From: Argopecten irradians
Lineage: Eukaryota; Mollusca; Bivalvia; Pectinida; Pectinidae
Assembly (NCBI RefSeq): GCF_041381155.1
Contig: NC_091134.1
Coordinates: 62,302,902 to 62,366,901, forward strand
Reading direction: 5' to 3'
Length of the DNA stretch: 64,000 nt
Part shown: positions 4,698 to 52,331 of the stretch, in pieces
Layout: each line of letters opens with the position of its first letter
Position numbering within the stretch: the stretch's first letter is position 1
Position numbers and translations under genes: made by a program
Notes under the pieces: model-generated
Database searches by the model: none
Told to the model about the DNA's origin: nothing
The model's input: only the letters and a program-made list of their open reading frames with translations

Positions 4698-5037
4698 CAT
4701 GAAAGGCCTATTGGGCCTGTATCGCTCACCTGTTTCAGGCCAAGAAGACAAGCTACCAAGGCTTTTGATTTGAACCTAATCCTACAGAAAACGGATTTTG
4801 AAAATATTTGCTACATTTTCCCTTATTGGGCCCACCTCCAGGCCCCTGGGGGACCAGGTCCATAATTTATACAAGATTGGTTCCCATTCACTCAAGTAAG
4901 CTTCGGCCCAAATTTGGTTAAAATTCATTATGCCATTCATGACTTGTAGGTATTTTAATGAAAAGTTGACGGACGACGGACGGATGAGGGAAAGACGACG
5001 GACGCCGCGCCAAGACATACGCTCACCGGCCATTCGA
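4698..5037 (+). mobile_element. Short decayed copy of the GGTGAGCT hairpin-ended element
   Basis: The left end has AGGCCTATTGGGCCTGTATCGCTCACCTG, written here as AGGCCT / TGGGCCTGTATCGCTCACC. It is followed by about one body unit and then a GACGGACGACGGACG-type run. The right end CGCTCACCGGCCATTCG has lost the final hairpin arm. Compare the full copy at 11063-12708. Confidence 0.7.
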
Positions 5038-5768
5038 AAATTGTAGGTCTCAAACGGGTCAGGTCACTGTCACAAAATTTTGAGAGTGGAATGGTAACTA
5101 CCTATGAGACTTAGAACTATAGCTTAAACTATATTAACTTGCATAATACAAGGGGGGGTATTAATTCAATATTATCTTTCTCACAATCTATACAACATTT
5201 TCCCATTATTTTTCGATAAATCATTCAGTTTGGCAAAGATCCAGGTTGGTGCTTATACTTATATATATGATTTCAATATTTCGAGTACTGCTCTAATAAT
5301 TATATCGACAGAACCTTTTGAACTGAAAAAGAAGAAAAACATATATCTACTCAGGTATGTATCACTTCTTGAGTTTCTTGAGGCCCGAGACTTCAGTCGA
5401 GATCAGAGGCCGCTGATGTGTGATGTAATATTTGGGATTAATAATATAATCTTTAGTGCAAATATTGATTCTTTCATTTCTTGTCATGCAATCATTCATA
5501 TATATAGAGGGTAACAGAATAGCAGTTATAAAGAAGATTGTAATAAACAACTGCTCCGTCCATCCTGGACCAGTCGTACTAATTTAACGATAAGGCCCAA
5601 TGTTTTACAAATGGAAGGAAGCATCTTTGGGTGGAACTTAAAATATGCCACACGAAATGTAAAACCACTGTCATAAATACATATTGATAGTTGCTGGTTT
5701 ATATAAATATTTGTCAAACTCTAGATTAAATGTACTTGTAAAAGTACATTAAAGTAAGTTCTACTTAC
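5038..5768. other. Non-genic stretch, nothing recognised
   Basis: AT-rich, with no supported feature. Confidence 0.5.
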
Positions 5769-7597: not shown

Positions 7598-7772
7598 ATT
7601 TAATTTTGGGGACAGTTGTTTCCCCTGCTAACTGGTAGAAGAGACATTTGAATACTTTCAAATCTCAAAGCCACGCCATTTTGGAATTATTAGAATTGCT
7701 ATTTTTACTCTTTGTACGAAACTTCACTGCTTAGTAATAAAGGCCAGAAGAGGGTATTGCATGTTGTAGTGA

Positions 7773-8182
7773 TTAAAGGCCCACTACCTTTCCGGAGCAA
7801 AATTTAAAGGTTCCTTAAAAAACATTAATAACAAAAGAAAACATATATCGATGGCTTAAGATGAGGTTACAACACCGAACATACGCAAGATTTCCTGTGT
7901 AATATACGATAACAGTGGAGATTCATTTCGCTGTTTTGCCGTCTGGCGCAGTGATAGTCAACTACCGCGCGGCATTTAGGACGACGGCGGGAAACATAAA
8001 ACGACCCGCGTTATGAAAATTAACATTTTATTTATTCTAATTAAACAGTTCTAAAGGTGATGATAAGTGTGCTAGTAAACGTATAGTTAATAACTTTTTC
8101 GACTCTACGAAATTATTGATCTCGTTTTACATTCCTATTTTAAAAATTAAAAGCCGTTTCGGAAAGGTAGTGGCCCTTTAAA
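7773..8182. mobile_element. MITE with TTAAAGGCCCACTACCTTTCCG termini
   Basis: Terminal inverted repeats of about 22 bp (TTAAAGGCCCACTACC... and its complement ...GGTAGTGGCCCTTTAA) bound 410 bp. The interior shares CGCTGTTTTGCCGTCTGGCG and ACGACCCGCGTTATGAAAAT with the copy at 47932-48298, and a fragment lies near 59220. No coding sequence. Superfamily uncertain. Confidence 0.8.
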
Positions 8183-9131: not shown

Positions 9132-9490
9132 AAGAAATAAATTGTCAAACTTGTTTCACAATGAAATGGAAATGTATATATTCGAAAATATATTTACTAA
9201 TAATAAGTTAAAATTTAAATAGATTGGTGATTTTACGGTCTGTAATTCCTTTTCTAAATGTAAACTGATAAAATACAAATAAACATGTAGTTATAGGTTT
9301 TCGACATAGCATACAAATGAATTTAGAAATAAAGAAGTAATACCTTAATATGTAGACATCGTTGGGTAATTAGATGCATATCTAACAAAGATCCGCGTGA
9401 TTATAGTTAATTATCGAGTGCATCACACGGTAAGACAAAAATAATGCATATTTTGTTTCGCAGGTAAATAACAAAGTCTTAATAACGTTT

Positions 9491-10403
9491 ATTTATTATA
9501 TACTCCCCGCCAATGTCATTATTTATTATATACTCCCCGCCAATGTCATTATTTATTGTATACTCCCCGCCAATGTCATTATTTCTTGTATACTCCCAGC
9601 CAATGTCATTATTTATTGTATACTCCCCGCCGATGTCATTATTTATTGTATACTCCCAGCCAATGTCATTATTTATTGTATACTCCCCGCCGATGTCCTT
9701 ATTTATTGTATACTCCCCGCCGATGTCATTATTTATTGTATACTCCCAGCCAATGTCATTATTTATTGTATACTCCCCGCCAATGTCCTTATTTATTGTA
9801 TACTCCCCGCCGATGTCCTTATTTATTGTATACTCCCCGCCAATGTCCTTATTTATTATATACTCCCCGCCAATGTCATTATTTATTATATACTCCCCGC
9901 CAATGTCATTATTTATTGTATACTCCCCGCCAATGTCATTATTTATTGTATACTCCCCGCCAATGTCATTATGTATTGTATACTCCCAGCCAATGTCATT
10001 ATTTATTGTATACTCCCAGCCAATGTCATTATTTATTGTATACTCCCCGCCAATGTCCTTATTTATTGTATACTCCCCGCCAATGTCCTTATTTATACAT
10101 ACTCCCCGCCAATATCCTTATTTATTGTATACTCCCCGCCAATGTCCTTATCTATTATATACACCCCCGCCAATGTCCTTATTTATTGCATACTCCCCGC
10201 CAATGTCCTTATTTATACATACTCCCCGCCAATATCCTTATTTATTGTATACTCCCCGCCAATGTCCTTATCTATTATATACACCCCCGCCAATGTCATT
10301 ATTTATTATATACTCCCCGCCAATGTCATTATTTATTATATACTCCCCGCCAATGTTATTATTTATTATATACTCCCCGCCAATGTCATTATTTATTACT
10401 TTC
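9491..10403. repeat. 30-bp minisatellite, about 30 copies
   Basis: The unit is CCCCGCCAATGTCATTATTT plus ATTGTATACT. Common variants are CAGC for CCGC, GATG for AATG and CCTT for CATT. A composite stretch with shortened units (about 10095-10260) is itself duplicated. Because 30 is divisible by three, several plus-strand frames stay open (decapeptides such as MSLFIVYSPP). The long open frames here are therefore a property of the repeat and are not evidence for a protein. Confidence 0.95.
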
Positions 10404-11062: not shown

Positions 11063-12708
11063 ACAAGAGGCCCTGAGGGCCTGTATCGCTCACCTGGTTT
11101 GTAATGTCAAAATTTATACAAGTTCTGTTCCCCTTCCCCCAAGGATATTTGTGGCCAAATTTGGTTACAATCCATGCAGAACTCTAGGTCAAGTAGCGAT
11201 TTATAGGATTTACCTCTATTTCCCCTATTGGCCTTCGCCCCTCCTGCCCCAAGGGTCAGAGCCAAAATTTATACAAGTTCTGTTCCTGTCCCCCCAAGGA
11301 TGTTTGTGGCCAAATTTGGTTACAATCCATGCAGAACTCAAGGACAAGTAGCGATTTATAGGATTTACCTCTATTTCCCCTATTGGGCCCCGCCCCTCCT
11401 GCCCCTGGGGGGTCAGAGCCAAAATTTATACAAGTTCTTTCCCCCTTCCCCCAAGGATGTTTGTGGCCAAATTTGGTTACAATCCATGCAGAACTCTAGG
11501 ACAAGTAGCGTTTTATAGGATTTACCTCTATTTTCCCTATTGGGCCCCGTCCCTCCTGCCCCCAGGGGTTCAGAGCCAAAATTTATACAAGTTCTTTCCC
11601 CCTTCCCCCAAGGATGTTTGTGGCCAAATTTGGTTACAATCCATGCAGAACTCTGGGACAAGTAGCGTTTTATAGGATTTACCTCTATTTCCCCTATTGG
11701 GCCCCGCCCCTCCTGCCCCTAGGGGGTCAGAGCCAAAATTTATACAAGTTCTTTCCCCCTTCCCCCAAGGATGTTTGTGGCCAAATTTGGTTACAATCCA
11801 TGCAGAACTCTAGGACAAGTAGCGTTTTATAGGATTTACCTCTATTTCCCCTATTGGGCAACGCCCCTCCTGCCCCCAGGGGGTCAGAGCCAAAATTTAT
11901 ACAAGTTCTTTCCCCCTTCCCCCAAGGATGTTTGTGGCCAAATTTGGTTACAATCCATGCAGAACTCTGGGACAAGTAGCGATTTATAGAATTTACCTCT
12001 ATTTCCCATATTGGGCCCCGCCCCTCCTGCCCCCGGGGGGTCAAAGCAAAAATTTATACAAGTTCTGTTCCCCTTCCCTCAAGGCTAATTGTGGCCAAAT
12101 TTGGTTACAATCCATGCAGAACTCTAGGACAAGTAGCGTTTTATAGGATTTACCTCTATTTCCCCTATTGGGCCCCGCCCATCCTGCCCCCGGGAGGTCA
12201 GAGCCAAAATTTATACAAGTTCTGTTCCCCTTCCCCCGAGGATGTCTGTGGCCAAATTTGGTTACAATCCATGCAGAACTCTAGGACAAGTAGCGTTTTA
12301 TAGGATTTACCTCTATTTCCCCTATTGGGCCCCGCCCCTCCTGTCCCCGGGGGGTCAGAGCCAAAATTTATACAAGTTCTGTTTCCCTTCCCTCAAGGAT
12401 GTTTCTGGCCAAATTTGGTTACAATCCATGCAGAACTCTAGGACAAGTAGCGTTTTATAGAATTTACCTTTATTTTCCCTATTGGGCCCCGCCCCTCCTG
12501 CCCCCGGGGGTCAGAGCCAAAATTTATACAAGTTCTGTTCCCCCTTCCCTCAAGGATGTTTCTGGCCAAATTTGGTTACACTATCCAGAACTCTAGGACT
12601 AGTAGCGATTTAAAGGAAATGTTGACGGACGGACGCCGGTCCGTCGGACGGACGACGGACGCCGCGCCATGACATAAGCTCACCGGCCCTTCGGGCCAGG
12701 TGAGCTAA
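11063..12708 (+). mobile_element. Hairpin-ended element with about ten 157-bp tandem units (GGTGAGCTAA type)
   Basis: The left end is ACAAGAGGCCC, continuing into the hairpin AGGCCC-TGA-GGGCCT and then GTATCGCTCACC. The body repeats a unit of about 157 bp (GTGGCCAAATTTGGTTACAA ... GCCAAAATTTATACAAGTTC). A GACGGACGACGGACG-type run follows at about 12622-12660. The right end is the hairpin GGCCC-TTC-GGGCC (12685-12697), seven bases (AGGTGAG), then CTAA. The outer arms AGCTCACC and GGTGAGCT also pair. There is no protein-coding sequence. The end structure is reminiscent of Helitron/Helentron-derived non-autonomous elements. Confidence 0.8.
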
Positions 12709-14612: not shown

Positions 14613-14769
14613 GATTTCCTATGGAAATTTTACAATTGAAGGAATTATTTTAAGTCAAGTTGATGAAACTAGGCCCAGGCCAAGGTCATCGTGACTGTTG
14701 CAATGAACAATTAAGGTACCGGTATTGTATAGTAGTGACTCTTCAGCAGAAGTTCCAAGTTTATGATAT

Positions 14770-15105
14770 ATTTAACCACTGTGGCCTTAAAACTTAAAAT
14801 TGGTCATCAATTTAAACAAACTTCTTAGCCCTTCATCTCAGTATGCTACAGGCTCTATATAGCAGGTCGCTATATTCTTAGTTACTGACATGATTATTTA
14901 AAGATTTTAGCCTATTTTAACTATTTGATCTCGAATGAAGTTCAAGGTCATTCATTTGAACAAACTGGGTAGTTCTATATCCTAGTATGCTACAGGTCCA
15001 ATATACCCTGGGCCTTTCGGTTATTGAGAAGTTTTTGAATGAAAAGTTACAGACAACCGATGACATCGACTGAAGCACGATAACTGTAGGTCACTCAGAC
15101 CGTTC
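14770..15105. repeat. Diverged copy of the GGTCATCTGA-type tandem-repeat element
   Basis: Recognisable phrases are AGCCCTTCATCTCAGTATGC, GAATGAAGTTCAAGGTCATT and GAGAAG...GAATGAAAAGTT, with a degraded TAGGTCACTCAGACC end. Compare the elements at 19779 and 26787. The hairpin ends are lost. 15106-15579 holds nothing else apart from the likely 5' flank of the next gene. Confidence 0.6.
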
Positions 15106-19117: not shown

Positions 19118-21674
19118 TCAACTTGAGGCGTTCTGTAGAATTCCCTTGATCATGGGTGTAGAGCGGAGCGTTTTGTAAATGTCCAACACTTTGTTCCTAC
19201 TTAAATCTTTTGCACAGGAATTCCGAGAATGTAAATCTGACAACTTATCCTACAAAATGAAACAATTCTATCAATGTTATTATTGTTATGATAATGAAAA
19301 CTAGAAATCTTACAATTCCAATTAGGGCTACTATGTTATTTCATTACATGTACAAAACAAATATTAAAGATGATCACTTTTTTCAGCATTATATGTATTA
19401 AGATTGTCACTTCTTACACAGTGCCTACTTGACTCTACTGAACACAATGTATGTTCATTCTGTGACGTTAGAAAATACATTTTTCAAATATCTGCTGGAG
19501 ACTGTTTACATAGACCACTGATTTTAAATAGATCTAAATCAATTCCATTTTTCATCAACCAAACATATTTTTTATCTTTGAGAACTGACATTTACATCAT
19601 TTTTTGTATTGATAAGAATTCACATTTACTTTCAAAATCTGTGAATGTCAATTTATTTGAAACAGCAATCGCAAAATGTAGTAGCCACAAAAGAAAAGTA
19701 ATTTACAGTAGGGCCAGGCCGCAAGATCATAAAACAGTCTAAAGTCTAAAACAATGTTTAGCTTAGACTTAGGAAATAACAAGAGGCCCATCGGCCTTAA
19801 CGGTCATCTGACTATTGGCACAATACAACATAGTCATTTAAAGATTTTAGCCATTTTGACCCCTGTGATCTTGAATGAAGATCAAGGTCATTTTTTTTAA
19901 AACAAATATGGTAGCCCTTCATCCCAGCATGTCACAGGCCCAATATCAGGTCTCTAGGCCTCTTAGATATTCACAAAAAAGTTATTTCAAGATTATAGCT
20001 TTTTTGACCCTTTGACCTTGAATGAAGGTCAAGGTCATTCATTTGAACAGACTTGGTAGTCCTTTATCCCAGCATGTACATGCCCAAAATCAGTAACCTG
20101 GGCCTTCTGGTTCTTGAATAGAAGTCGTTTAAAGGATTTTAGCCTATTTGACCCCTGTGACCTTGAATGAAGGTCAAGGTCATTCATTTGAACAAACTTG
20201 GTAGCCTTTCATCCCAGCATGTTGCGGCTCCACTATGAGAACCCTGAGACTTCCGGTTCTTGAAAAGAAGTCGTTTAAAGGATTTTAGCCTATTTGACCC
20301 CTGTGACCTTGAATGAAGGTCAAGGTCATTCATTTGAACAAACTTGGTAGCCCTTCATTCCAGCATGCTACAGGCCAAATATAAGTACCCTGGGCCTCCG
20401 GTTCTTGAGAAGAAACCGTTTAAAGATTTTAGCCTATTTGACCCCTGTGACCTTGAATGAAGATCAAGGTCATTCATTTGAACAAACTTGGTAGCCCTTC
20501 ATTCCAGCATGTTACATGCCCAATATCACTACCCTGGGCCTTCTGGTTATTGAGAAGAAGTCGTTTAAAGATTTCAGCATTTTTGACCCCTGTGACCTTG
20601 AATGAAGGTCAAGGTCATTGATTTGAACAAACTTGATAGCCCTTCATCCCAGCTTGTCAGGGACCCAATATCAGGTCTCTAGGCCTCTTAGTTATTCACA
20701 AGAACTTGTTTAAAGGATTTTAGCCTGTTTGACGTCTGTGACCTTAGATGAAGGTCATGGTCATTCATTTGAACAAACTTGGTAGCCCTTCATCCCAGCA
20801 TACTACAGGCCCAATATCAATACCCTGGGCTGTCTGGTTCTTGAGAAGAAGTTGTTTGAAGATTTTAGCCTTTTTGACCCATGTGACCTTGAATGAAGGT
20901 CAAGGTCATTCATTTGAACAAACTTGGTAGCCCTTCATCTCAGCATGCTACAGGCCAAATATCAGTACCCTGGGCCTTTCGGTTATTGAGAAGAAGTCGT
21001 TTGAATGAATGGTTTACGCAAGGCGGACGGCGCACGACGACGGACGGTGCATGATGACAATAGGCCTCAGATGACCTAAAAACAGATACATTCTATTACA
21101 AAAATTTAAGTGGAAGATGGCTTCATCACCCTGAAACCAGATCTTGGATTGCACTCCAATACCCTTAGAATACCTTCCAGTATGTTCTGGAATGTAGGGG
21201 GTCGGAGTGAAATCAAAAGATCTGGTTTTAATCAGATTGGTCAAGGACAAGCCATTCATCAAGGAGAGGAGATTTGGATGTAGTTTGACGCTGTATTACC
21301 TGGAGGTGTTGCAGACTGTTCACCAGTTGTGGTTCTCTCCTGTCACCAATGTACTGTACATCTCCTCTACACACCTGTTGATCAAACAAAATATTGAACT
21401 TTAAAAAACTATCATGGAGAATAATATTAAACAAACAAAATATTAAACTCTCAAAAACTGTAACGGAGAATAATATCAAACAAACAAAATATTGAACTCT
21501 TTAAAATGTAACAGTGAATAACATACAATATATGATAGTAAAATATAGCAAACATTACAATATACTGGAGGAAATATCTAAACATATTTGTAGATTGTGA
21601 TGAATACATGTTTATATCATTGTCATAGAAATGATTTATTGTGTGCTATAATCCTACAAATTTCGTATAAAATT

Positions 21675-21718: not shown

Positions 21719-24700
21719 CAACAGTATCTCTGGGAGTATGAATTAAATTTGTTGTGATGAAGAATCTAGCATCAACGTCCAAAGATTACAAATCTATATA
21801 CCTAGCATAGGAAAGATTAAGCAGATGTAGATCAAAACACTGCTAAGAAACAAATCTAATGAAAGTTTTGTAGTACTGATAATTTTTAAAAATATTAATT
21901 ATTGTAAAATTTCAATAAAACATCAAGGTATGAGAGAAAAACACTCTTTCACATGTGGATATGAAGGATAGGGATATTCTATCCTCCGGATTACAAAATC
22001 TTGTAAAACTCTCTACTTATTTTTGTAAACCTTGGGTTTTACAACATTTGATGACCCTTGGGTAGACTATCCCTATCCTTCACATCCACATATGAAAGAG
22101 CCTGATAATTATTTGCCTTTATAATTAAAGATGGTTTTTAAGTTAAGTCAGGAAAGATATGTTACACTTACTTGGAGCCTGTTTTGGATGGCTTGTCTGG
22201 TTGCTATGGCTACATGAGCCCTGTCACTGTGTATTGTCAGTGTATGATCCTCAGCTGCTAGGCGTACCTCATGTCCTCCCACGGTTACCACGGAAACAGA
22301 GTTGTCCTTTTGCACCACTGAGCTAGACCTCAGCAGGAAACTCAACAGAGGACAGGGGTCTATCAACACATAAAGAATATTAACAGTCATGTTTTCAGCA
22401 AGATGGTAAGTTTATAATATCAAAATCAACAGTGCTATATCAATACAATCCACTAACCATTGTACAAAGACTGAATATTTCAGTGAAGACAAGAGATCCC
22501 ATGGGGATCTTGACACTCACCATTGAGTGATCTATGGAAAGCAATATCTTTTCTCTTCTTTACTGTAATTTTCAAAATCCAAGATGGCCATGAGTCAGAC
22601 GTGTCGTCTTTCAAAAGCATTGAGCCAAAAGGAATTCATATGGACTTTACACCAATAAGCAACTATTCATTTGAAGCTAAGGAGTAGCATCATTACAATA
22701 AGAGGATTCAAACTGTACAAATAGTTGGAAAGACCCTGCAATAGGTTATACATACAAACAAATAGGAAGGATTGGTAGGAATTGAAACTTGTACAAATGA
22801 ATAGTTTTTTCTTTAGCAAAGCTTGACACACATGCTCTTTTGCTAGGTGAACTGAAAAATATTGTACAAGGTAGCTAGGCAAAGAAAAAGTAAGGCACAT
22901 AGTACATCAAGCGCAATTAAACTTGTAAAACTAATGTAAAAAGGATGAAAATGCAGGGATTAATCGATATATATAATGAAACCTGCCTTAGTGACCACTT
23001 GCAATTGAGTCCTCTGTATAAAGGCCACTTGCTTATTAGGGTCCCAAATGATTTTATTACCTGACTATAAGTGTAAATGAAATATTTTTAACTATTTTCA
23101 CAAGAAGTTACTTGAAAATCATATATACAAATCCTTGGAAACTAATTTGATTGTTGACCGGCTGGGGATTTCTGCATGTGCTTAATTGTTGACTTCATAA
23201 ACACCGGCACGCCGAACCCAAATATTCTTTTGATGAACATCATTCTCAACATAAGCGACAACTTTGAAATGGCGTTTTGACATTTTGGTTGTTAAAGAAC
23301 ATACGGAAAGTAGAAGCGCTATAAATACGGAACACATAATTCCTGGGAAATACAACTTTGCACGGCGTTGTATGATACAATTATGAATTTTCAAGTTCAT
23401 TTTTTGTTATATCAAAAACAGATTTAATGTTTCTGGACTACTCAGGTAACAAAGCAGTTGTCTCATGCCTTATTAGTCAACAGTCAAAAATCTTTCCCCT
23501 CGGTGTTGGGACCAACCCTAGGAATGGCCTAGGGAAACATCCCTAAGGTTGGCCCAAAATTGAGAGGAAAGAGTTTTGACTGTAAACCCATAAGGCATGA
23601 AACAATTGTATAATAAGGACTATTTGGCTAATGAAACCATTTTCCCCTTGTCCCTTGAGTGGTCTTTATAGAGAGGTTTGACTATAGGTATCTCACCTTT
23701 GCGGTAGATGGCTACTTGGTCGGACTTGAGGACATCATCAGGAATCTGGACAGTGAGAGTTGTTGGTGTGGGAGCTAGGGGCAGCTCATTACACCTGGCT
23801 ATTGGCTGGGTAACTGCTATGTCTTTTACTAACTGTGTTATACTGACCTCTGGAGTTGCGGAGGTCAATGAAATCACATCTTGTGGAGTAACAAGGCCAT
23901 ACAAAATGTCCAAGGTAGTCGAACTGACCGGTACATTTATAACTGGCTGGATCACAGTACTGTTTGTAGAATGAAGCACCAGACTGATTTTCACTATTAA
24001 AGGCAACAGAAGGCTTGAGTCTAGCAGAACCGTTTGGAACTCCATCCCTGTCGCGGCCCCCAGTCCATGGGGAAGTGGGAATGAAGAGCTCACAAATTCC
24101 TGTTTATTATCACTTAACACAATCATAACCATCCAATCACTTGAGAAGTGAATATCACTAGTATTAGTCATGTGACAGTTAAACACCCAGTTACTGTTTT
24201 GTCTTGACTGTCCATCTCGAGGAGAGATAGAGTACGAGAATCGCAGTGGGAAGTCTGGACTCTGTGGGTCTTGTGTGGATAAAAAAGCAGCCATGTTGAT
24301 TTGGGCTAACCTATCTGTCTGGCAAGACTGTTGTTTCTTTAATTCCTCCATCTCCTCACTACAAATATTGATGCTATGTAGCAGGTTTCTGATGGTCTGA
24401 CCGGTGCCTGCAGCTTTTCGTCCTCTCTTATGTCTTCCTTCAGGTTTTATTAACTTCAGTGGGAGTCCATGGGTTCCTAGCAGCAGGTCACACTCACCTC
24501 CTTCAACACAAATATAATTTCTTAAAATCTTGAAGCTGATGAATTTATTTGATCAATTTAAATAAACTAAATCTGTAGTTGGAGTACAGCAACTTTAATA
24601 GAATATTATCATACATTTTCTCTACACTTTACACCTTTTTTTATTCCTTTTTACAGAACATAATTGTGGTTATAAACTTTTAAAAGTTTGTAGAACTTAG

Positions 24701-27700
24701 CATATAAACTCTTAAACTTGCATCTAAATGACCTCACTGACCTTGAGTACAGTTGTTGTCATGGAGACATGCCAGCTCCTGGGCCCCAGCATACATTAGC
24801 CCTGCTATGTGACAGGACAGTCCTGCAGGCTGTGGTTTGGTTTCCAGCACACTTTCATACACATCCATCCCACTAGAATGGTAAATCTTGTTTCCATGGG
24901 AATCTACATCAAGTACTGGGCCAGGTAAAGCAATCTCAACAAACTCAAACTTACCAGCGTTTCCCTCCGATAATGTAGCTAATAATGCTCTGCCGTCCTG
25001 TGATGTTACAACAAGTCCAGTCTGTTTGTCCTGGTGGCCGACCTCTAAATATAGAGGATCTTTTATATCTGCCACTTTCAAATCTAGTTTGCCTACCCCA
25101 ACTACTGGATAGTGTGTATGGCAGAAAAGTCTTACAGTCCCAGCTTCTGTATCAGGAGACTTGATTGGTGCATAATATACAGAGCCCTCTGGTGGACATA
25201 TCAGTAACAAAGGAGAGTTTAACAATGACAACTGAAAACCACACAAAGCTTGAAAGATATCTTTAGAAATTTCCAGAACAGACGAGAAGCTTTCTTTGTA
25301 TACATTGCCATTTCTAGTGGTAACTAAATGCAAGGACACATTTCTGTCCTCAAATTTGACCCCTGCCATGACCTCTGACCTGTCTCTTGACCTCTCCTTT
25401 GACCCATAATGGAATTCTTCCGTATAATTATGATGTGTTCCATAGCTGCCCTGATCGTTATGATGCGTTGGTAATTGTCTCTGTAAAATATAGGTTTGCA
25501 AAGGTAGTTTATTTCTGCCCGAGTGTAGTTCTGTCAGTAGATATAATTGTATTAGATAACTATGCTGATTGCATAATGCTATGGCAAGCACCTCACATCC
25601 CACAGCCAGACTAGTAACTTCCTGATCAAGTTCCAGTAGTGAGTGATCCCCAGTGATATGGAAAACTGCATGGGAAACTTCCTTCATCTCTTTCATCCCA
25701 AATATGGAATCATTTCCAAGGAGATCACTGAAAATCTCCTGGTTTCCTCTTTTTTCCTCATCATGATGTGAACTTGTTTTTGACCTGAATGAAAAGTCCA
25801 TATGCATTCATTATTCATTAAACATAATGCTTGTATGGCAGTATAGGTGTTTACAAGTTTCATTAATAGCTATCTGGTCATACGGTGTATATTTTCCAAT
25901 GGATCAAAGTTCTTATAGTAGATGTACCCATATTCTATCAAAGATCAGTTTCTCTGTGAAAAGCATTGACTACATGACAAGTGCATATTAGGGCTGGGTA
26001 TTGTAAGGTCTCAAATGATACGATACATATTGACAATACATTGAAACAATACACGATACTTATTGACGATACACTGGATACCTTTTTTTCAAATTCAGTT
26101 GACAATTGTGTTTGGAATATTGTGACAATAAAAGACAATTTTGATAAAACATTCTGTAACCTGGCAAAAATCTACCAAACATTTGATTCAGTTTATCATT
26201 TGTGTTGATTAATGTCTGTCAATTTGTATTTTTAGTTATGAAAAGACATTTCTAATCCATCTAGGTGACACACATGCTTTAAACACTTCCTTTTGATTGA
26301 AATGCTCTTACTTGAATAATGTTTTAGAATAAATTTTGTTTGGAATTTTCTCTTTCTATAATGAAAACAGTAGGTTGAGTTGTTATAACCTTACAGCGAT
26401 ATACAGCATGTTTGCGTATCGATATCCGATACGCTTCTGAAAACCGATATGTATCAGTATATCGATATATTGATTCAGCCCTAGTGCATATCTAGTAGTA
26501 ATGAATCTACACTAATGACAGCTGCAATAAAAGAAACTGTTCACAATGATCATTTTGCCATAGTGAAGAAGTAATGCCTGTTACAATCTAATGAGCAATT
26601 ATCAGGTATGGACTGGGGGTCAGTGGATTTACATGGTGCTCTGACTTTCATCAACCACCAAAATAATACATGTCCTAAAATGACCTTACTTGTAAATCAA
26701 ATAGTAAAACCAAATGTTAACTATGCTTTAGAAATTTTACCAAATCTACTGTATAGACTTCAAATTGACCAACTTTTAACTAAACAACAAGAGGCCCAAG
26801 GGCCTTAACGGTCATCTGAATAGTATTGGAAATCAATTAGATATGGTGTCATGGTAACCATCTTCGATTCAGGATCAACCAGAGATGTAACAACACTTTG
26901 TCAAGATCATATCACGGTCATTCCAGGCAAGTTTCAGCCTTTCATTTTCACAACTTTGGTAGCCCTCCATCAAAGCATGCTACAGGCCAAATATGAATAC
27001 CCTTGACCTTTTGGTAAGTTAGAAGAAGTCGTTCAAAGATTTTCGTCTACTTGACCCCCGGTGACCTTGAAAGTAGGTCAAGGTCATTCATTTTCAAAAC
27101 TTTGGTAGCCTTCCATCCCAGCATACCACAGGCCATATATGAGTACACTGGACCTTTCAGTAAGTAAGAAAAAGTTGTTCAAAGATTTTCTTCTACTTGA
27201 CCCCCTGTGACCTTGAAAGCAGGTGAAGGTCATTCATTTTCACAACTTTGGTAGCCCTCCATCTCAGCATGCTACACAGGCCAAATACATATGTATGAGT
27301 ACCCTTGACCTTTTGGTAAGTTAGAAAAAGTCCTTCAAAGATTTTAGTCTACTTGACCCCGCGGTGACCTTGAAAGTAAGTCAAGGTCATTCATTTTCAC
27401 AACTTGTATAGCCATTCATCCCAGCATACCACAGGCTAAATATGAGTATCCTGGACCTTTCGGTTAGTTAGAAGAAGTTGTGCAAAGATTTTAGCCTATT
27501 TGATCACCCTGTGACCTTGACAGTAGGTCAAGGTCATTCATTTTCACAACTTTGGTCACCCTTTATCCCGGCATACCACAGACTAAACATGAGAACCCTG
27601 GACCTTTCGGTAAGTTAAAAGAAGTTGTTCAAAGATTTTAGCCTATTTGACCCCCCTGTGACCTTGAAAGTAGGTCAAGGTAATTCATTTTCACCACTTT

Positions 27701-30283
27701 GGTAGCCCTTCATCCCAGCATACCACAGGCCAAATATGAGTACCCTGGACCTATCAGTAAGTTAGGAGAAGTTGTTCAAAGATTTTCGTCTACTTAACCC
27801 CCTGTGTCCTTGAAAGTAGGTCAAGGTCATTCATTTTCACAACTTTGGTAGCCCTCAATCCCAGCATGCTACAGGCCAAATATGAGTACCCTGGACCTTT
27901 CGGTAAGTTAGAAGAAGTCGTGCAAAGATTTTAGCCTATTTGACCCCTGTGACCTTGAAAGTAGGTCAAGGTCATTCATTTTCACAACTTTGGTCGCCCT
28001 TTATCCCAGCATACCACAGGCCAACTATGAGTACCCTGGACCTTTCGGTTAGTTAGAAGAAGTTATTCAAAGATTTTAGCCTATTTGATCCCTATGACCT
28101 TGAAAATAGGTCAAGGTCATTCATTTTCACAAGTTTGGTAGCCCTCTATCCCAGCATGCTACGACCAAATGTGAGTACTTTAGGCATTACGGTTAATGAG
28201 AAGAAGTTGTTTGAATGAAAAGTTCACGCACGGCGCACAACGACGGACGGTGCATGATGACTATAGGTCATCCTGACCCTTCAGGTCAGATGACCTAAAA
28301 AGTGATCTCTGTCATAATGATAGGTTTTGAGGGCGAATCTGGAGGAGGTTACAAACATACTTATTGTTGATAACTTGATTTTCACCAACAACATAGAGCT
28401 GAGAGCTGGTTAAAATGTACAACACCCATCCCGTGTGGTTTGTGTCACACAATGTATGATGTCCAATACACACGTCCAGGACAGGACATGGGACAGCCAC
28501 AATACTCTGCAAGGAAAAATAATAACACACGTAAAGGTTAGTTTTGAAATATATCATAATTGGCCTGGTATGCCTATATGATATGCTTCTGATGAAAATT
28601 TGAGAGCAATGTCATGGATGTCAGTCATGGTACAGCAACTAAATTCAATGCCAACTAATAGCTAGTAGTGATTTTATGGACTGCTTGGAAAGGATGCAGT
28701 AAGTTGTTAAGATTATAGCCTATTTTGTCCCTGTAACCATTTATAATTTTATCCCAGCATGATACAGGCCTAATATCAGGTCTCAAGGGCTGTTAATTGT
28801 TGACTATAAATTGTTTAAAAGATTGAAGCTTATTTGATCCCTGTGAACTTAAATGAAGGTTAAGGTAATGAACAAACATTGTAGCCCTTCATTCCAGCAT
28901 GCTACATGCCCAATAACATATATGGTTTCTGTGCCTCTTAGTTATTCATAAGAAATTGTTAAAGGATTTTAGCCTATTTGACCGTTGTGAATTTGAATGA
29001 AGGTCAAGATCATTCATTTGAATAAACTTGGTGGTTGTCTTTGAACAGTAAGTTTACACAAAGCCTGACACACGACGACGAATAAAGTATTATGACCCTC
29101 AGACCATGTAACAATTCATACCAACGAACTACCTTGAATAGGAACAACCCAGGGTGAACTAGATTTACGGTTAAATTGTTACCCAGAGCTTGTACGTCAT
29201 CTTGCTACTTTGACCACAGAAGTCTGCTTCAGGTTTTATATTAGGGGTAAGCTATATATATAGCTATACGGTATATTTTTTGCTAAACAAGAAGCAGCCG
29301 TCTGTGTTTGACATTGTCAGATTGTTCCTATAACACTCTTTGCCCTATCCTCGATACTCCTGGGTTTCCGATCAATTAATCATTACGATCTCTACACCCC
29401 TGGACTATCTCATAGTAAAACTGAATTCACCTCAGAGGAAAAAATCTGAACCAATCACAGGCCAGTAAAAATTTCCTTTGAAGACTACTGAGAGAGCGAC
29501 GCCCAACTTCAAAGCCACACAGTCAACCACAGTGTACGTTATACCGCTCTTTTGATGTACATCAAAAGAATAAATTACATGTTCTGTTTTGTTACCTCCA
29601 GTTTTAATATGTGATAGTCCAGGGGTGTAAAGATTGTATGATCAGAACCCCTAGATTATCGAGGATGTCATCCCCCATCCTTGAAGGCAACAAAAACACT
29701 TTTGTACATTTGTAATTTGATCCTTTGATATACACCAATGGAATTTTATAACGGTACACTGACTGTGGTTGACCGTGCTGCTTTGAAGTTGTGTCGCTCT
29801 CTCTGTCTGTATAGATCTTCAAATGAAGTATTTTCTCCTTGACTGCCTCCACTTTTCCTATGGGATCATATAAATAAATTCTAAGTAGGCCTAGTCGATG
29901 ATAGGGTAGTCGTGGATAATCTTCATTTTTAAATACAAATAATAGGCAACTTGAAAGAAAATGACAAATTAAAATTGTCACAGTTATTAGTCAGCACCTT
30001 AATTTTTGTTCAGGGCAGTTATTGTTAGTTTAGATCGTAAACTGAAAATTCTGTATCACGTTCCATTTTGGGTAGTGTTTCAAATTGGGCAGCGTCACGT
30101 TAGGCCTAGTCAGTGAAAGTAACCCTTGGGATATCGAGGATGCCTAACACCATACAATACGGATTTAATTATTCATATGCCTACCAGTAGCTGACACTGT
30201 CTGTAGATGTGTATGCATGTCTTACTCTCGTCTAACGTTACTGAAATTAACTCGTCAGAATCCACATCCCTCACAACTTTCAT
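19118..30283 (-). CDS. FAAP100: FAAP100, Fanconi anaemia core complex subunit (7 coding exons)
   Basis: Exons by transcription order: 30185-30283, 28361-28506, 24742-25784, 23697-24500, 22172-22359, 21300-21374, 19118-19249. All junctions are GT-AG and in phase, giving 828 residues (human about 880). In vertebrates FAAP100 joins FANCB and FANCL in the subcomplex that ubiquitinates FANCD2-FANCI at DNA crosslinks. Matches to human include LPGPVL...YHS (exon 3), the repeated-motif propeller region, the helical stretch IRNLL..I...EEMEELKKQ (exon 4) and the C-terminal helix VQYI...LVNSLQHLQDKLSDL with LSRNKVLDIYKTLRS (exons 6-7). The start ATG follows an in-frame TGA. The last exon, only 132 nt, was found by its match to the human C-terminus. 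Continuing past the exon 6 donor (CTCCAG|GTAATA) reaches a stop at 21228, giving a different, less conserved tail. Introns hold many mobile elements. Confidence 0.9.
19779..21079 (+). mobile_element. Hairpin-ended element with about eight 145-bp units (GGTCATCTGA type)
   Basis: Lies in FAAP100 intron 6. The left end is ACAAGAGGCCCATCGGCCTT followed by AACGGTCATCTGA. The body repeats units of about 145 bp with TGACCTTGAATGAAGGTCAA, GGTCATTCATTTGAACAAAC and GTAGCCCTTCATCCCAGCAT. A GGACGGCGCACGACGACGGACGG run precedes the right end CTCAGATGACCTAA, where the inner hairpin arm is reduced. Non-coding. Confidence 0.8.
21681..21711. repeat. Poly(T) tract
   Basis: About 30 T residues in FAAP100 intron 5. 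It could be an old poly(A) tail on the minus strand, but no adjoining retroposon is recognisable. Confidence 0.8.
21945..22100. mobile_element. Foldback/MITE-like inverted repeat
   Basis: The arms CTTTCACATGTGGATATGAA GGATAGGGAT (shown in two pieces) and their complement ATCCCTATCCTTCACATCC...GAAAG are about 32 bp, flanking about 90 bp. Located in FAAP100 intron 5. Confidence 0.7.
22489..22630 (+). mobile_element. Left end of a further hairpin-ended family (AGATCCC type)
   Basis: ACAAGAGATCCC leads into the hairpin AGATCCC-ATG-GGGATCT (22494-22510) and then TGACACTCACCATTGAGTGA. The leading ACAAGAG and the hairpin position match the GGCC-hairpin elements, but the arms differ. No tandem body or right end is visible, so the copy is truncated. 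Located in FAAP100 intron 4. Confidence 0.5.
23455..23609. mobile_element. Foldback/MITE-like inverted repeat
   Basis: The left arm (TTGTCTCATGCCTTATTAGT, then CAACAGTCAAAA and TTTCCCCTC) is complementary to the right arm (GAGGAAAG...TTTTGACTG...ATAAGGCATGAAACAA). The arms are about 45 bp with a few mismatches. Located in FAAP100 intron 4. Confidence 0.7.
25989..26483. mobile_element. Non-autonomous hAT element with perfect 8-bp target duplication
   Basis: The termini TAGGGCTGGGTATTG and ...GATTCAGCCCTA are flanked by GTGCATAT on both sides (25981-25988 and 26484-26491). An 8-bp duplication with a TAGGGCTG-type end is diagnostic of the hAT superfamily. The 495-bp interior has GATACGATACATATTG- and ATATCGATATAT-type sequence and no transposase. 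Located in FAAP100 intron 2. Confidence 0.85.
26787..28298 (+). mobile_element. Hairpin-ended element with about nine 148-bp units (GGTCATCTGA type)
   Basis: The left end is ACAAGAGGCCCAAGGGCCTT followed by AACGGTCATCTGA. The body units are about 148 bp and contain GTGACCTTGAAAGTAGGTCA, CATTCATTTTCACAACTTTG and CCAGCATACCACAGGCCAAA. A GCGCACAACGACGGACGG run follows. The right end is the hairpin AGGTCATCCTGACC-CTTCA-GGTCAGATGACCT (28265-28296), completed by CTAA. It belongs to the same family as 19779 but a different subfamily (Phe/Lys-like wording of the unit differs). Located in FAAP100 intron 2. Confidence 0.8.
28685..29108 (+). repeat. Diverged copy of the GGTCATCTGA-type element
   Basis: It carries AGATTATAGCCTATTTTG, ATCCCAGCATGATACAGGCC and AATGAAGGTTAAGG in three decayed units, and ends ATTATGACCCTCAGACCATG. 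Located in FAAP100 intron 1. Confidence 0.6.
29346..29667. mobile_element. CATCCTCGATACTCC-family MITE-like copy
   Basis: The left end TATCCTCGATACTCCTGGG and the right end CTAGATTATCGAGGATG bound an interior matching 3219-3584 (ACCAATCACAGGCCAG, GAGAGAGCGACGCC, CTTTTGATGTACATCAAAAG). Located in FAAP100 intron 1. Confidence 0.75.
29690..30142. mobile_element. Rearranged remnant of the same MITE-like family
   Basis: 29690-29860 matches the family interior in opposite orientation (GATATACACC...ATAACGGTACACTG...GTGTCGCTCTCTCTG). A terminal GATATCGAGGATG closes at 30142, only 42 bp from FAAP100 exon 1. The centre (29870-30100) is unassigned. Confidence 0.55.
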
Positions 30284-43400: not shown

Positions 43401-46400
43401 GGAGAAAGGTCAGGGAGCAAGGTTCACCACCACCAAGGAGACGTAAACAAGACTCCCCACCACCCAAACTCAGAAAGAAGGACACATCAGAGGAATCTTC
43501 ATCTTCATCAGAGGAAGAGGCCTCTTCAGCAGACTCTCCTCCCTCTCGACAGGCAAAACGCCCCAGGAAGTCACCATCGCCAGGTCCTCGAAAGTCACCT
43601 GTCCCAAAAAGAAAGCAAAGATCTCCTTCTCCTGAAGTACAACAAAGACGTAGACCCTCACCGCAAGCAAAGCAACCTGGTCATGGACAAAAGAAACGTC
43701 AACAAATGTCGCCCAGCCCATCACCATCACCTCCACCAAAGCGTCGTGATTCTCGTATGAGAGACTCTTCTGAGAAAACTAGACACGCAAGGCAGCAATC
43801 GCCTGTTCAAAGAAGGAAGCAGTCAGGATCTCCTGTCCGACAAAGGAGAAGACAATCTGAATCTCCACCTCCTCAAAAGAGGAGACCATCAGATTCTCCT
43901 CCTCCGCAAAGAAGACGTCCATCTGTATCTCCACCACCACAAAGAGGTAGACCATCTGCATCTCCAGCTCAAAGGAGAAAGCAATCTGGCTCGCCACCAA
44001 GACAAAGGAGGAGACAACCTTCTGATTCTTCGCCACCGCCTCGAAGGAAGCAACAGTCTGAATCCCCTTCCCCTAGAAGACAACGGGAATCTGGATCACC
44101 TCTAATGCAGAGAAGGAAGCGTTCAGAATCTCCACCACAGAGAAGAAGAAAGCCTTCAGACTCTCCTCAACGAGGCAGACCATCACCCTCTCCCCCCTAT
44201 CAAAGAAGTAGACAAGCCCGTTCTCCCCCTGCTGCCAGGCGACAGTGGGAATCACCCTCCCCCGACGCTCCACGCCAGAGGAGGGGAAGGCCATCCCCAA
44301 GTCCTGAACCAGTCCCTAGAGGCAGGGGAGAATACAGAGAAGACGATGTTCAAAGGACTATTACAATCAACCAAGGTAAGAGAGGACGGGATGATGTGTC
44401 GCCTGGTTCTCCACCGGGCAGAGGTGGAGGGTTCATGGATGGTGAAGAGAATGTGAAGAGGAGAATGAAGGACAAAAGCCCAGCATCAGGCAGTGACTTT
44501 GAGGTAAATATTGCTGTGATGAACAATCTACTTTCAGTATCTTACATACCACTTAGTTTTTGCTTTTTAAAATTTCTTAGTTGATTTTTTTTGGTAGAGG
44601 TATACAGACTCGTAATGATCTGAATTGCTCTGATATGTGATTGATCGTTTTTTAGGTCACCTGAGACGAAGTCTCAAGTGACCTATTCTAATCGCCTTTT
44701 GTCCGTGCGTCGTATGTCCGTAAACAATTTACATTTTCGACTTCTTCTCCAAAACTGCTGAAGCAATTTCAATGAAATTTTGCACAAACCTTCTAAGGTA
44801 TAAGGCCAATCAAAATTGTGAATTATATGGTCCCCACCCCCCAGGGGAATGTGAGAGGGGCCAAAAGGGGTAAAATTGAGTAAAATTTCAAAAATCTTCT
44901 TCTCTACTCACAGATGTGGTAGAATCAAATACTCTTTATGGATAGACAGGTCTTAAGGTCCTTTACAAAAATTGTGAATTATATGACCCTGGGGTCTCTA
45001 GTTTCCCCCTGGGGAGGGGGTTAAGTTTACTATAAATTTATATTGGGAAAACACATTTTTGCACATTATTTGGTCATTTGTAATAGGAAATGAGTCAAAT
45101 GTTGTCGGAATTATCAGTATGAGATGGCCATTTAATTCTATTAACAAATTTTCTATGACTGACCCCCAGGGGCAAAGGGGCGGGGTCAAAAGGGGTCAAA
45201 TAGGCTAAAAATTCAAAAATCTTCTTCTGAAATTCTGGAAATAGTAGAATCAAATACTTTTCATAAATAGAAAGGTCTTAAGGTCCTTTACAAAAATTGT
45301 GAATTATATGACCCTGGGATCTCACGTTTCCCCCTGGGGAGGGGGTCAAGTTTACTATAGTTTATATAGGGAAAACACATTTATGAGCATTTTTTGCTCC
45401 ATTTTCATTGGAAACGAGTCAAACTTGGTTAGAATTATTAGCCTGAGATAGCATTTTAATATCATATCCACATTGGTCCTGGCCGACCCCTGGGGGCAAA
45501 GGGGCGGGGCTAAAAAAGGGTCAAATAGGCTAAAACTTCAAAAATCTTCTTCTGAAATTCTGGAAATGGTAGAAACAAATACTTTTCATAAATAGAAAGG
45601 TCTTAAGGTCCTTTACAGAAATTGTGAATTATATGACCCTTGGGTCTCGCGTTTCCCCCTGGGGAGGGGGTCAAGTTTACTATAGTTTATATAGGGAAAA
45701 CACATTTATGAGCATTTTTTGCTCAATTTTCTTTGGAAACGAGTCAAACTTGGTTAGAATTATTAGCCTGAGATAGCATTTTAATATCATATCCACATTG
45801 GTCCTGGCCGACCCCCTGGGGGCAGAGGGGCGATGCTGAAAAAGGTCAAATAGGCTAAAACTTCAATCAATTCTGGAAATGGTATAATCAAATACACTTT
45901 ATAGATGAAAAGGTCTTAAAGTTTGTGTATAAAAATTGTAAATTATATGACCCTGGGGTCTCGCATTTCCCCCTGGGGAGGGGGTCAAGTTTACTATAGT
46001 TTATATAGGAAAAATACATTATTGAGGATTTTTTGCTCAATTTTCATAAGAAATGAGTCAAACTTGGTTAGAATTATTAGCCTGAGATAGCATTTTAATA
46101 TCATATCCACATTGGTCCTGGCTGACCCCCTGGGGGCAGAGGGGCTGGGCTAAAAAAGGGTCAAATAGGCTAAAACTTCAAAAATCTTCCAAAATTCTGG
46201 ATATAGGAGAATCAAATAATTATAGATGGAAAGGTCTTAAGGTGTTTTATAAAAATTGTGAATTATATGACCTTGGGGTCTCACGTTACCCCCTGGGGAG
46301 GGGTCAAGTTTACTTTAGTTTCTATAGGAAAAACATATTTGTGAACATTGTTTGCCCAATTTTCGTAGGAAATTAGTCAAACTTGATTAGAATTATTAGC

Positions 46401-49400
46401 CTAAGATATAGCATTTTAACATCCATATCCATCCTCAATGACCCCCTGGGGGACCAGAGGGGCAGGACCAAACAGGGTCAAAATGATTAAAGGAGTAGGT
46501 ACAATAAGGGTCAATTATGGCCCCAGAATGTATAGAAATTCAAACAATGTAAAATCTCACAAACACAGCTTTCCAAAAGAGTTGAGTATCGATATTTTCG
46601 CAATCAAAGATGATTTTCCACTTACAGTATTTGTAGATGGGTTAAAAGACGATATATTTAGGCCATTTCATGCATTTTTATACATTTTCTTGCAAAAATG
46701 GCTTGAAAAAGCGTAGTTTTCACATTGGCCGCAGCTTTGTCCAAACACCATTTTTTGTCAACAGAACCAACATAAAAATTTAAATCTTTATGCAAAATGT
46801 CTAATTTGGACACAAATGCGGCCAATCTGAAAAAAAGAAAATTCTATGAAATTAACGAACCAGAGATCGCAGCGGCGGTAATAATAACATAAAACGGTAT
46901 CGGGCACGGCTATTATTTATCCGGAAAAAATAAATCGGAAGCATATTCAGTGTGCATATATGAAGTGAGGAATAAAAATAATATTAGTGATTATTTTGAT
47001 TAGTTTTATGACGATGTATAAAATTATTACTCTGTGCAGTAAGCGCCTTTCTCAATTTTCTGTAGCGAAAACGTTGCGATAAAAATAGTGTCCGTATTCT
47101 TTTGCCCGGATTACGGTCCCGCCTTTATAATGTACTCGGTGTTTTGACACAGCGTAACTGGCGATGTTTACGCTGATTTTCTATATACATTGTCTTCCCG
47201 GTCGTTTCAACATGGATCGTGATGTTCAATTGAAGAATCAAGTATACTCTTCTCTTCTTGATGTATATAGTCTATAGATTTACTACTATATATCTCACGA
47301 GACGTATTTTGATCATAGATGGGAACCCGTCAATGACCTGACATTTCGGTAGGCCTACGTCACTGAAAATTCGAAGCCATGTATCGTTGGTAGGCCAAGT
47401 ACAGTAACGTTAACGTTCAGTTCAACATAGATCATTCCGTCATACAGTAAATCCTATTCATTGACACCATTTTCATGTATAAGCCTGTGTGTTTTATGTG
47501 AAAAATGTTCATTTTTTAATTTTGAAAATCTGAAAAGTTGGCGATTCTACAGTTAGGCCTACTAGCTAGCTAGGCTAGAGTAGTGCAATACGGTAGGACA
47601 CCGGACATGGGTTTAACTACTGTAGTTATTTTATCTCTATGTTATAGATGTATTTATATCATAAAGGCGTTATATACCTTTATATAATAAAATCTAATCT
47701 AGCAAAAAATTGTTTACATTAGAGTGCTACAGATTATTAAGGATACATATCTTCATTTTTTCAACTAATTACGAAGCATGCGTGGCAGTCGTGACGTTCT
47801 GTCCCCTGTTCCGAAGGTAGTGAGTCCGAATCGACATTTATACATATATATATTTTTTTTTAATTTCTGAACCCCAACTTTTAATGAAATTATCAATTCA
47901 TCCTTTCCTAAAAAATATATATATTTATATATTAAAGACCAATTACCTTTCCGAAATAAAGAATTAATATTATTTCAATAACATTAATTGTATAAGAAAA
48001 TTATATTTATCGATGACCTAACACAAGGCTTCAACACTTAACAAATGCAAGCTTTCCTTCGTAATCTATTTTAACAGTGAAATACACTTCGCTGTTTTGC
48101 TGTCTGGCGCAGTCAGGACGACGGCTAAAACACAATACGACCCGCGTTATGAAAATAGCATTAGGGTTATTTTGAATAAATTGGTCAGAATGTGTTGCCA
48201 ATTGAAGTATTAACAGAACGCTAATAACTCTTATCAATCTCGTTTTACTTTCCAATTTTAAGAATAAAGAGCCCTTTTGGAAAGGTAGCGGGCCTTTCAG
48301 TAATAATATGTTAGGCCTATACCTACATGTGTTATTTTAGTAGGCCTAATATAGTTCCATTTACAATATAAAATATTATATTTAGAAATATTGAACCAGG
48401 AACATTCTTAACCTATATAACCGTATGTGAATATGTTGTTCAATCTATTTTCTCCTTTATTCAAGTTGACATAATTAAAAAATAATAATAATGACACCAT
48501 TACCATAGTCAACATATGTACTATGTACATACTTCCCGGTAGTTATACATGTAACCATTGACTTTACTGTGATCAAATGTTAAAATGCATATACATATAC
48601 ATGTATACTACAACTTGTTGTTCGTGGTCTGAGCGTTGATTATATTTACATCTGTATGGTAGGATGCCTAGACGATTAATTTGATTTGATTGTGAAAAAG
48701 GGACACTTCTTAATGAAAGACTGTATGGTTGCCATGCTACCAGTATTAATACTAAATATTTAGGAATAAACCACTGCAAGGACACTGGCGTTGCTTGTCA
48801 AAAGTATTTTCTTACATTAAAAGATCATGCTTGAAAGTAAATAACATAAAAACAGCTTATTAATTGATAAGAAAGGGTAGATGTGACGTAACGTAATTCC
48901 CAGAACAGGATACAAACCTCTGGAACACATTGAAAAGGTGTAAGTCCGAAGTCACTTGCGCGGTTGAAAAATGCTTGTAAATTAAACATGACCTGTTGTA
49001 CATGTATCTAAATCTATTATCTTTCATTATTGCACTTGGAAATATTTACATGAATTTAAGTATTGTCGATTTTACTTTTGTAAATAGCGAGCGTATACAT
49101 GTAATACAGTACATATCGTAAAGTAGTACCGTAGTGTACATATGTAGTAGTGCCATAAGATTGTGATTATATTACGTTGTTGCTATCCTTTTGGGACTTT
49201 GATATAAAATTCAAGAAATGTGAAGAATACCCTGCTGAAATACAGAAATGGAATGAACAGACGTAAAATTAGATTGATTAAATATCTTTAAAATCTCATT
49301 ATTTTGTGTTTTTAGTGTCTAAAGTGTTGTTGCTATGGAGAGAAAATGGTTGCTATGGTGTAACTATGGGCTATAATATGGTTAAGTGTTATGAAACATG

Positions 49401-51684: not shown

Positions 51685-52331
51685 TTAGGTCATCTGACCC
51701 GAAGGGGGGCCTGAGGGGTGGGGTCGAAAGGGATCAATTTGGCTATTTCCATATAAACGACTTCTCTGAAACCAAGCATGGGATAGCACCCATAATGCAA
51801 TGGTAGCATCCTTATAGGCTGGGGATTCAAAATTGTACAAATGATGGGGCTGACCCCCAGGGGGCCTGAGGGGTGGGGTCAAAAGGGGCCAATTTGGCTA
51901 TTTCCTTATGAACAATTTCTTCTCTGAAACTCAGCATGGGATAGCACCCATAATGCAATGGTAGCATCCTTAAAGGGTCGGGATTCAAAATTGTGCAAAT
52001 GATAGGGCTGACCCCCCGGGGGCCTGAGGGGCGGGGTCAAAAGTGGTCAATTTCCATATAAATGACTTTTTCTCTGCAACTTAACATGGGATTACGCTCA
52101 TTATGCAATGGTTACATCCTTATAGGTTTTGGATTCAAAATTTTGCTAATGATGGGGCTAACCCCCGGGGGCCTGAGGGGCGGGGCCAAAAGGGGTCAAT
52201 TTAGCTATTTCCATATAAACGACTTCTTCTCTGCAACTAAGCATGGAAGAGCACTCATAATGCAATGGTAGCATCCATATAGGGTTGGGATTTGAAATTG
52301 TACAAATGATAGGGCTGACCCCCTTGTATTA
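51685..52331 (-). mobile_element. Truncated hairpin-type element with about 157-bp units
   Basis: Read on the minus strand it ends GGGTCAGATGACCTAA, as in the other elements, but the outer hairpin arm is fused directly to the body. Four units of about 157 bp carry CTGAGGGGYGGGGTCAAAAG, ACGACTTCTTCTCTG and ATAATGCAATGGTAGCATCC. The left part is missing where a SINE begins. Confidence 0.7.

Follow-up and report, generated by a model that had tools for sequence, protein, structure and literature searches.

The window analysed here is a stretch of 64,000 nucleotides (C1:62,302,902-62,366,901) in an assembly that totals 845.8 Mb, and it contains four complete elements, E1 to E4, and one incomplete element, E5, together with decayed relatives (Table 1). 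The limits that an initial annotation had assigned to the four complete elements are exact, with the ends correct to the base. The start motif ACAAGAGGCCC that was said to be common to them occurs in the window solely at 11063+, 19779+, 26787+ and 49854-, and the pattern AG[AG]TGA[CG]CTAA stands at all four opposite termini, with an extra occurrence at 51695-. A 3' terminus for E5 was looked for in the window and was not found.

Other repeats are also present in the window. A dispersed repeat with copies at 7384-7599, 52324-52483 and 53445-53653 (81-89%) contains TTCGAATCCC, is tRNA-like and is possibly a SINE; one of its copies adjoins the broken side of E5. Minisatellites at 9489-10397, 17554-19066 and 56204-57002 have units of 30, 53 and 59 bp, and there are no exact HINE ends inside these arrays. 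The segments 2946-3584 and 29347-29667 are related, as direct and inverted copies in a foldback-like arrangement, and a stretch at 47931-48297, in the non-tandem part of E4, is 67% similar to 7772-8179.

Table 1. Features of the window, in window coordinates. The elements are very probably HINEs (non-autonomous Helentrons), and the strand given is that of the Helentron sense.
Feature	Position	Strand	Description
E1, complete HINE	11063..12708	(-)	157-bp x 9.6 body, c-type ends (GCTCACCTG)
E2, complete HINE	19779..21079	(-)	145-bp x 8.1 body, a-type ends (GGTCATCTGA), without 5' hairpin
E3, complete HINE	26787..28298	(-)	147-bp x 8.6 body, a-type ends
E4, complete HINE	44652..49854	(+)	325-bp x 4.9 body and about 3.4 kb of non-tandem DNA; b-type ends (GGTCACCTGA), 3' copy with one mismatch
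E5, incomplete HINE	51692..52323	(+)	a-type 5' terminus and 158-bp x 4 body
E1 Helentron 3' terminus	11063..11097	(-)	CTCTTGT, GGCCC palindrome 11068-11082, subTIR 11088-11097
E1 Helentron 5' terminus	12677..12708	(-)	TTAGCTCACC.. hairpin, subTIR 12696-12705, fold z -6.1
E1 GTCC-type microsatellite	12620..12667	(-)	adjoins 5' terminus
Decayed E1-type copy	4712..5040 (approximate limits)	(-)	4815-5036 against 12472-12693, 75%; both extreme termini missing
Decayed E2/E3-type body fragment	14752..15105	(-)	similarity within window
Decayed E2/E3-type body fragment	28748..29036	(-)	similarity within window
F-type 3' terminus of a further HINE family	22487..22536	(-)	GATCCC palindrome
E3 degenerate unit of the Rep/Helicase element's 3' repeat	26786..26939	(-)	71% to L046:2756-2885, E 5e-17

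The ACAAG hairpin end, written as ACAAGAGGCCCN{0,12}GGCCT, lies far from chance expectation, since it has 12,969 exact copies in the 845.8 Mb and the reversed pattern has 0. The hairpins of this end are short and each is weak on its own (fold z -0.9 to -2.2), and the palindrome GGCCC..GGGCC lies 5 nt from the terminus, as is characteristic of HINEs. At the CTAA end, where a hairpin or its remnant had been described, three of the four elements have strong folds (z -6.1, -6.1 and -7.0) and the end of E2 has no fold (z +0.6), which is consistent with the word “remnant”. The hairpin before CTAA had also been interpreted as the 3' signature (CTRR) of Helitrons, and this orientation has to be inverted. 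Downstream of the coding frame of the Rep/Helicase copies described below, homology breaks off at ..GGCCTCTTGT. In the available portions of a study of mite and Drosophila Helentrons (PMC4067079), the subterminal inverted repeats (subTIRs) lie 2-4 nt inward of the 5' terminus, and the 3' end is the one with a palindrome close by. By this rule of placement, the ACAAGAGGCCC end (..GGGCCTCTTGT) is the Helentron 3' end and the CTAA end (TTAG..) is the Helentron 5' end. The resemblance to CTRR is therefore coincidental and the comparison with canonical Helitrons inapplicable.

Just inside the ACAAG hairpin lies a repeat of 9-10 bases, missed in the initial annotation, which is the reverse complement of the opposite terminus and which covaries with that terminus between elements. 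The pair is GCTCACCTGG/CCAGGTGAGC in E1 (c-type), GGTCATCTGA/TCAGATGACC in E2 and E3 (a-type), and GGTCGCCTGA/TCAGGTGACC, with one mismatch, in E4 (b-type). The extent of the matching was evaluated by a rule chosen to avoid selecting for matches: each exact ACAAG end in which the repeat could be recognised, and no other end, was paired with whichever recognisable terminus came first downstream, regardless of type, over a distance of up to 7 kb. The 22 pair rows so obtained reduce to 15 once seven segmental duplicates (five from L009 and one each from L013 and L028) are removed, and in 14 of these 15 independent pairs the subterminal repeats are complementary and of the same type, as in the subTIRs of HINEs. 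Random pairing gives 14 matches in 6 of 200,000 permutations, a figure to which kinship within families contributes. The sole mismatched pair, at L048, is probably two overlapping elements. The earlier idea of one machinery serving all of these ends is too simple, because at least three matched subterminal end types coexist, of which only one could be linked to a Rep/Helicase element.

The Rep domain PF14214 has 104 matches in the genome and none in the window. Two long frames, in C510 (3115 aa) and C9 (3067 aa), have an end of the E2/E3 type, TCAGATGACCGTTAAGGCCCTTTGGGCCTCTTGT, downstream in sense, which in C510 is separated from the stop codon by about 2.9 kb. A search with the C510 region returned five more copies that match from query base 1. 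In C15 (100%, a rounded figure), C607 (89%) and C9 (88%) the homology stops at base 3015, which is the terminus plus one T; the C14 copy matches in two pieces, with an expanded array before the second, which runs to 3015, and the C126 copy, which is without the 3' terminus, stops at 2383. The search for a Rep/Helicase element with the ends of the window elements, which had been recommended at the outset, thus yielded one lineage that, as judged from sequence over its 3' part, shares the a-type 3' terminus with the HINEs. If this partnership holds, TTAGGTCATCTGA would be expected at the 5' end of the C510, C15, C9, C607 and C14 copies. No Rep/Helicase partner has so far been found for the b-type (E4) and c-type (E1) ends, and one candidate group for the c-type failed.

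The C510 lineage has OTU-like, Herpes_teg_N-like, DUF6570 and Helitron_like_N domains, and a different Rep/Helicase locus has PIF1 and endonuclease (PF03372) domains. The last 51 residues of the C510 frame (..LDLIFTN..WSDHNMV..) have no Pfam match at E 10; by eye, we take this C-terminus to be endonuclease-like. An OTU protease domain and a Herpes_teg_N match (E 1.7e-10) are present in the Rep/Helicase N-terminal part at L031:1298-7000. At the end of the C510 element (L046:2862-3014) there are two 3' termini 130 bp apart, the second of which is preceded by a piece of another unit.

Several candidates for autonomous ends or partners were considered. The “left end” TTAGCCCACC upstream of the Rep/Helicase loci L030, L049 and L050 was first taken as the autonomous 5' end, but in L049 and L050 it belongs to a nested HINE, since the homology goes on upstream and a GATCCC-type 3' end lies downstream in the C510 copy; at L030 the assignment to a nested HINE rather than to an autonomous 5' end is uncertain. 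The candidate at C15:11769096 belongs to a HINE-type copy as its 5' end and may also be that of the Rep/Helicase element, and twelve further upstream windows contained no clear autonomous 5' end. The Rep/Helicase group of C15:14929451 failed as the c-type partner: four copies stop at 1735, two extend beyond the c-type end, C294 matches 1005-2567 only, and the remaining loci match only a nested HINE. A further HINE family, with 155-bp units, the 5' end TTAGCCCACCATC and a 3' end with the GATCCC palindrome, occurs at L031:1-339, L049, L050 and L030:940-1615; in several copies it is nested on the upstream side of the Rep/Helicase frame. The palindrome AAGATGGC..GCCATCTT is common to its units and to the 146-bp units considered below.

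For the tandem bodies, the previously reported unit sizes of 157 and 145 bp are confirmed, and the other two, given as 148 and 320 bp, measure 147 and 325 bp. The accompanying statement that the bodies do not resemble one another is incorrect, since E2 and E3 are about 76% alike and other pairs of bodies have cores in common. In a comparison of 21 unit pairs, with scores tested against 200 shuffles each, the scores of the cores shared in E1-E4, E1-E5, E4-E5, E2-E4, E3-E4 and E3-E5 were reached by 0/200 shuffles, and that of E2-E5 by 1/200; the shared cores among E1, E2/E3, E4 and E5 cover at least 41 aligned columns and lie on the same strand. The direct comparisons of E1 with E2 and with E3 are not significant (96/200 and 106/200 shuffles), so that E1 connects to E2/E3 solely via E4 and E5. 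Selection on a body core is unsupported: within arrays the cores are conserved between units no better than the rest of the unit, and they are therefore read as marks of common descent and not as a constrained site.

A source for one of the bodies is suggested by the 3'-most 430 bases of the Rep/Helicase element (query 2584-3015), which contain units of about 146 bp. Among 40 scored of 3559 candidates, 26 further loci match this stretch and end at 3014-3026, 15 of them exactly at 3015, and the 146-bp unit is also carried by L025 and L014. The 5' end of the family is fixed, in that the 40 scored full-length matches, query included, begin at query 1-4. The C14 Rep/Helicase copy has more units than C510, which implies that arrays can lengthen while still part of the parent element. 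Because this unit adjoins the Rep/Helicase element's 3' end, the body of the 146-bp family looks intrinsic rather than captured. In E3 a degenerate 146-bp unit adjoins the 3' terminus and the main array is made of a different 147-bp unit; this arrangement looks like the replacement or addition of a body.

The insertion sites were evaluated with 18 two-ended elements hand-picked from 68 candidate ends. The element at L021 is inserted in a 46-bp minisatellite, and its empty site is represented, among the matches listed, by nine alignments to neighbouring units (90-97%) with no duplication; the same one-base gap appears in eight of the nine, which suggests that one junction A is shared with the host. 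For L015, 43 rows were obtained, of which 23 are paralogous sites without interruption (71-85% identity), and the other 20 are single flanks at filled sites or a segmental duplicate. For nine of ten insertions, the window's four included, no empty site was found among 40 scored of 1764 candidates. At L021 and L015, comparison with empty sites thus bears out the predicted absence of target duplication, and the fixed-length target-site duplication that is a trait of MITE/TIR elements was found at neither. The expected T-rich target is likewise supported: in the 5+5 flanking bases of 15 elements (3 duplicates being left out) 65% are A, which is T in the Helentron sense, and the landing sites are A/T-rich.

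A 3' end followed by a 5' end in the Helentron sense (TGACCTAAN{0,9}CAAGAGGCC) occurs 101 times in the genome, a count that includes segmental duplicates, and the reversed control occurs 0 times. Among the 100 abutments listed, the spacer is zero bases in 60, one base in 24 and two bases in two. The expectation from the base composition of the window and the 12,969 ends is about 0.8 abutments per spacer, which the shorter end motif of the abutment pattern would raise somewhat. Over the same span, there is one tail-to-tail and there are four head-to-head arrangements, with one in the reversed control of the latter. Head-to-tail abutments are over-represented compared to chance, and this excess suggests that a resident 5' terminus serves as a landing site. 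At C607 a HINE 5' end follows directly after the Rep/Helicase 3' end, with zero bases between them and with matching 146-bp units downstream. At C1:5412600-5442599 (L009-L011) there are at least six head-to-tail 3.35-kb segmental duplicates, each with a complete 832-bp HINE and flank; a rolling-circle concatemer was considered for C1:5414617-5431392 and rejected in favour of a segmental tandem duplication, because the 3.35-kb unit includes non-element flank. The repeated copies at L028 likewise share a non-element 5' flank.

If the elements were canonical Helitrons (Helitron1), with the 3' hairpin and CTRR at the CTAA end, then the strong hairpin before CTAA in three of the four would be accounted for, but this classification is hardly credible given that the Rep/Helicase coding frame runs toward the ACAAG end (CTCTTGT), that a 5' TC is absent and that subterminal inverted repeats are present. 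Just as implausible is a cut-and-paste mode of movement, in which a transposase would mobilise the elements as DNA transposons of MITE or foldback type. The elements are short, they have subterminal inverted repeats, and their bivalve relatives were formerly called MITEs; against this, target duplication is absent at the sites found, the ends are asymmetric, and one terminus also occurs in Rep/Helicase elements. The shared Rep/Helicase terminus and the lack of duplication instead uphold the view that these are non-autonomous rolling-circle elements, of Helentron type. It is highly probable that E1 to E4 are HINEs, that is, non-autonomous Helentrons (Helitron2-like rolling-circle transposons), with matched ends; in one HINE family the body would derive from the Rep/Helicase repeat, and a resident 5' terminus may itself serve as a landing site.

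The proposal that common ends capture different bodies is partly right, in that E3 holds a different array next to a remnant of the Rep/Helicase unit, and the units of E1 and E2/E3 are not directly alike. That all of the tandem bodies were captured from unrelated genomic DNA is nevertheless unlikely, since one family's unit occurs in the Rep/Helicase element and cores are common to the bodies of E1, E2/E3, E4 and E5. Slightly less doubtful, although still improbable, is the explanation of the head-to-tail abutments as rolling-circle concatemers of single elements and not as insertions at a resident terminus. This explanation is favoured by the zero-base fusions, by chains such as C11:23717883/23720200/23722814, by the C607 Rep/Helicase copy that is directly followed by a HINE with the same body unit, and by a match length of 40 at 18 of 43 junctions after a/b-type ends compared to 2 of 100 AAAGGG ends listed (in the 4 cases shown, match length 40 corresponds to the Rep/Helicase lineage's AAAGGG loop, and the Fisher test on these ends used 2/101). 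The end types of the neighbours, assigned by match length, have the opposite bearing. The fully specified zero-base junctions number 43 after a/b-type ends and 36 after c-type ends, and the neighbour is a/b in 29/43 and 28/36 of these (Fisher p 0.33), so that ends have no preference for their own type and single-element concatemers are disfavoured as the general cause. The abutments fit landing at a resident 5' terminus, where the Rep nick would lie. A broader proposal, which we put forward tentatively and regard as falling just short of evenly balanced, is that a resident Helentron 5' terminus may be the preferred landing site for any end type because Rep nicks there, that repeated docking may build head-to-tail chains in which different families are joined to the exact base, and that bodies may start as repeats beside an autonomous 3' end.

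In the mechanism proposed for the HINEs, the Helentron 5' end is composed of TTAG, a subterminal repeat, a hairpin and the GTCC microsatellite, and the 3' end of the matching subterminal repeat, the GGCCC palindrome and CTCTTGT. The Rep/Helicase(+endonuclease) protein of an autonomous relative would nick at the 5' TTAG terminus, one strand would be peeled off until the 3' palindrome stops the process, and the strand would join an A/T-rich site without target duplication. The subterminal repeats would act as matched recognition ends, with at least three types coexisting. In one family the tandem body would have arisen by expansion of the repeat that adjoins the Rep/Helicase element's 3' end; others, such as E3, retain a remnant of the Rep/Helicase unit and carry a different array. 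Zero-base head-to-tail junctions would form where the 5' terminus of a resident element is itself a landing site.

Helraiser, the bat Helitron, is a reconstructed canonical Helitron and not a Helentron. The likeness to it lies in the rolling-circle mechanism, and Helraiser produces circles with precise end-to-end junctions; the introduction of the same paper, as far as its available text goes, cites arrays of head-to-tail copies from plants and bats (PMC5876387). The present elements are filed as HINEs because, in the accessible portion of the report on the Pacific oyster, Cg_HINE elements already have shared flanks, unrelated satellite-like bodies (“Group 2”) and no duplication (PMC7492417). 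Similarities to the oyster elements include the modules (subTIR, IR, GTCC-type microsatellite, tandem body of 140-180 bp, subTIR and palindrome), T-rich sites and the absence of target duplication. A difference is that one family here has its 3' terminus and body unit in common with a Rep/Helicase element, whereas in that portion of the report no relation could be drawn between the oyster HINEs and the autonomous elements detected, and where the repeats came from was left open (PMC7492417).

The excerpted account of the mite and Drosophila elements describes HINEs as deletion derivatives of Rep/Helicase/endonuclease elements, which is counted as a likeness, as are the position of the 5' subTIR, 2-4 nt inside its terminus, and the presence of a palindrome close to the 3' terminus; the present elements differ in that the 3' subTIR starts 22-25 nt inside the terminus, compared to 38-60 in the mite, and in that E1, E2 and E3 consist mostly of tandem bodies (PMC4067079). 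Asymmetric terminal inverted repeats and hairpins are shared with the Helitron2/FoHeli elements of Fusarium, in one group of which the 3' CTCCTGT is counted as a likeness to the CTCTTGT found here. The available part of that work describes single cases of a copy at or near the 5' end of another copy, in contrast to the 101 abutments of one end class in one genome found here, 60 of the 100 listed being zero-base (PMC5148889). The open-access literature on bivalves, in the portions available, contained no precedent for a shared Rep/Helicase terminus and body unit, for shared body cores or for a directional abutment count, and a literature search with the letters of the end motif gave, among the matches listed, titles that are all on unrelated subjects. 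The kind of element is already known; what is new is the source of the body and the bias of the abutments. Added to the earlier work are a Rep/Helicase element with a shared terminus and body unit for one family, the links among body cores, and a genome-wide, base-exact abutment count.

For the oyster, the accessible portion of that report left two questions unanswered, how non-autonomous Helentrons gain satellite-like bodies and what mobilises these elements (PMC7492417); in the present genome, the body of one family is traceable to a Rep/Helicase element. Since the abutments are base-exact and run in one direction, the insertion rule is directly testable. If elements do dock at resident 5' termini, this would provide a route for the exchange of bodies between matched ends, and for the seeding of satellite arrays.
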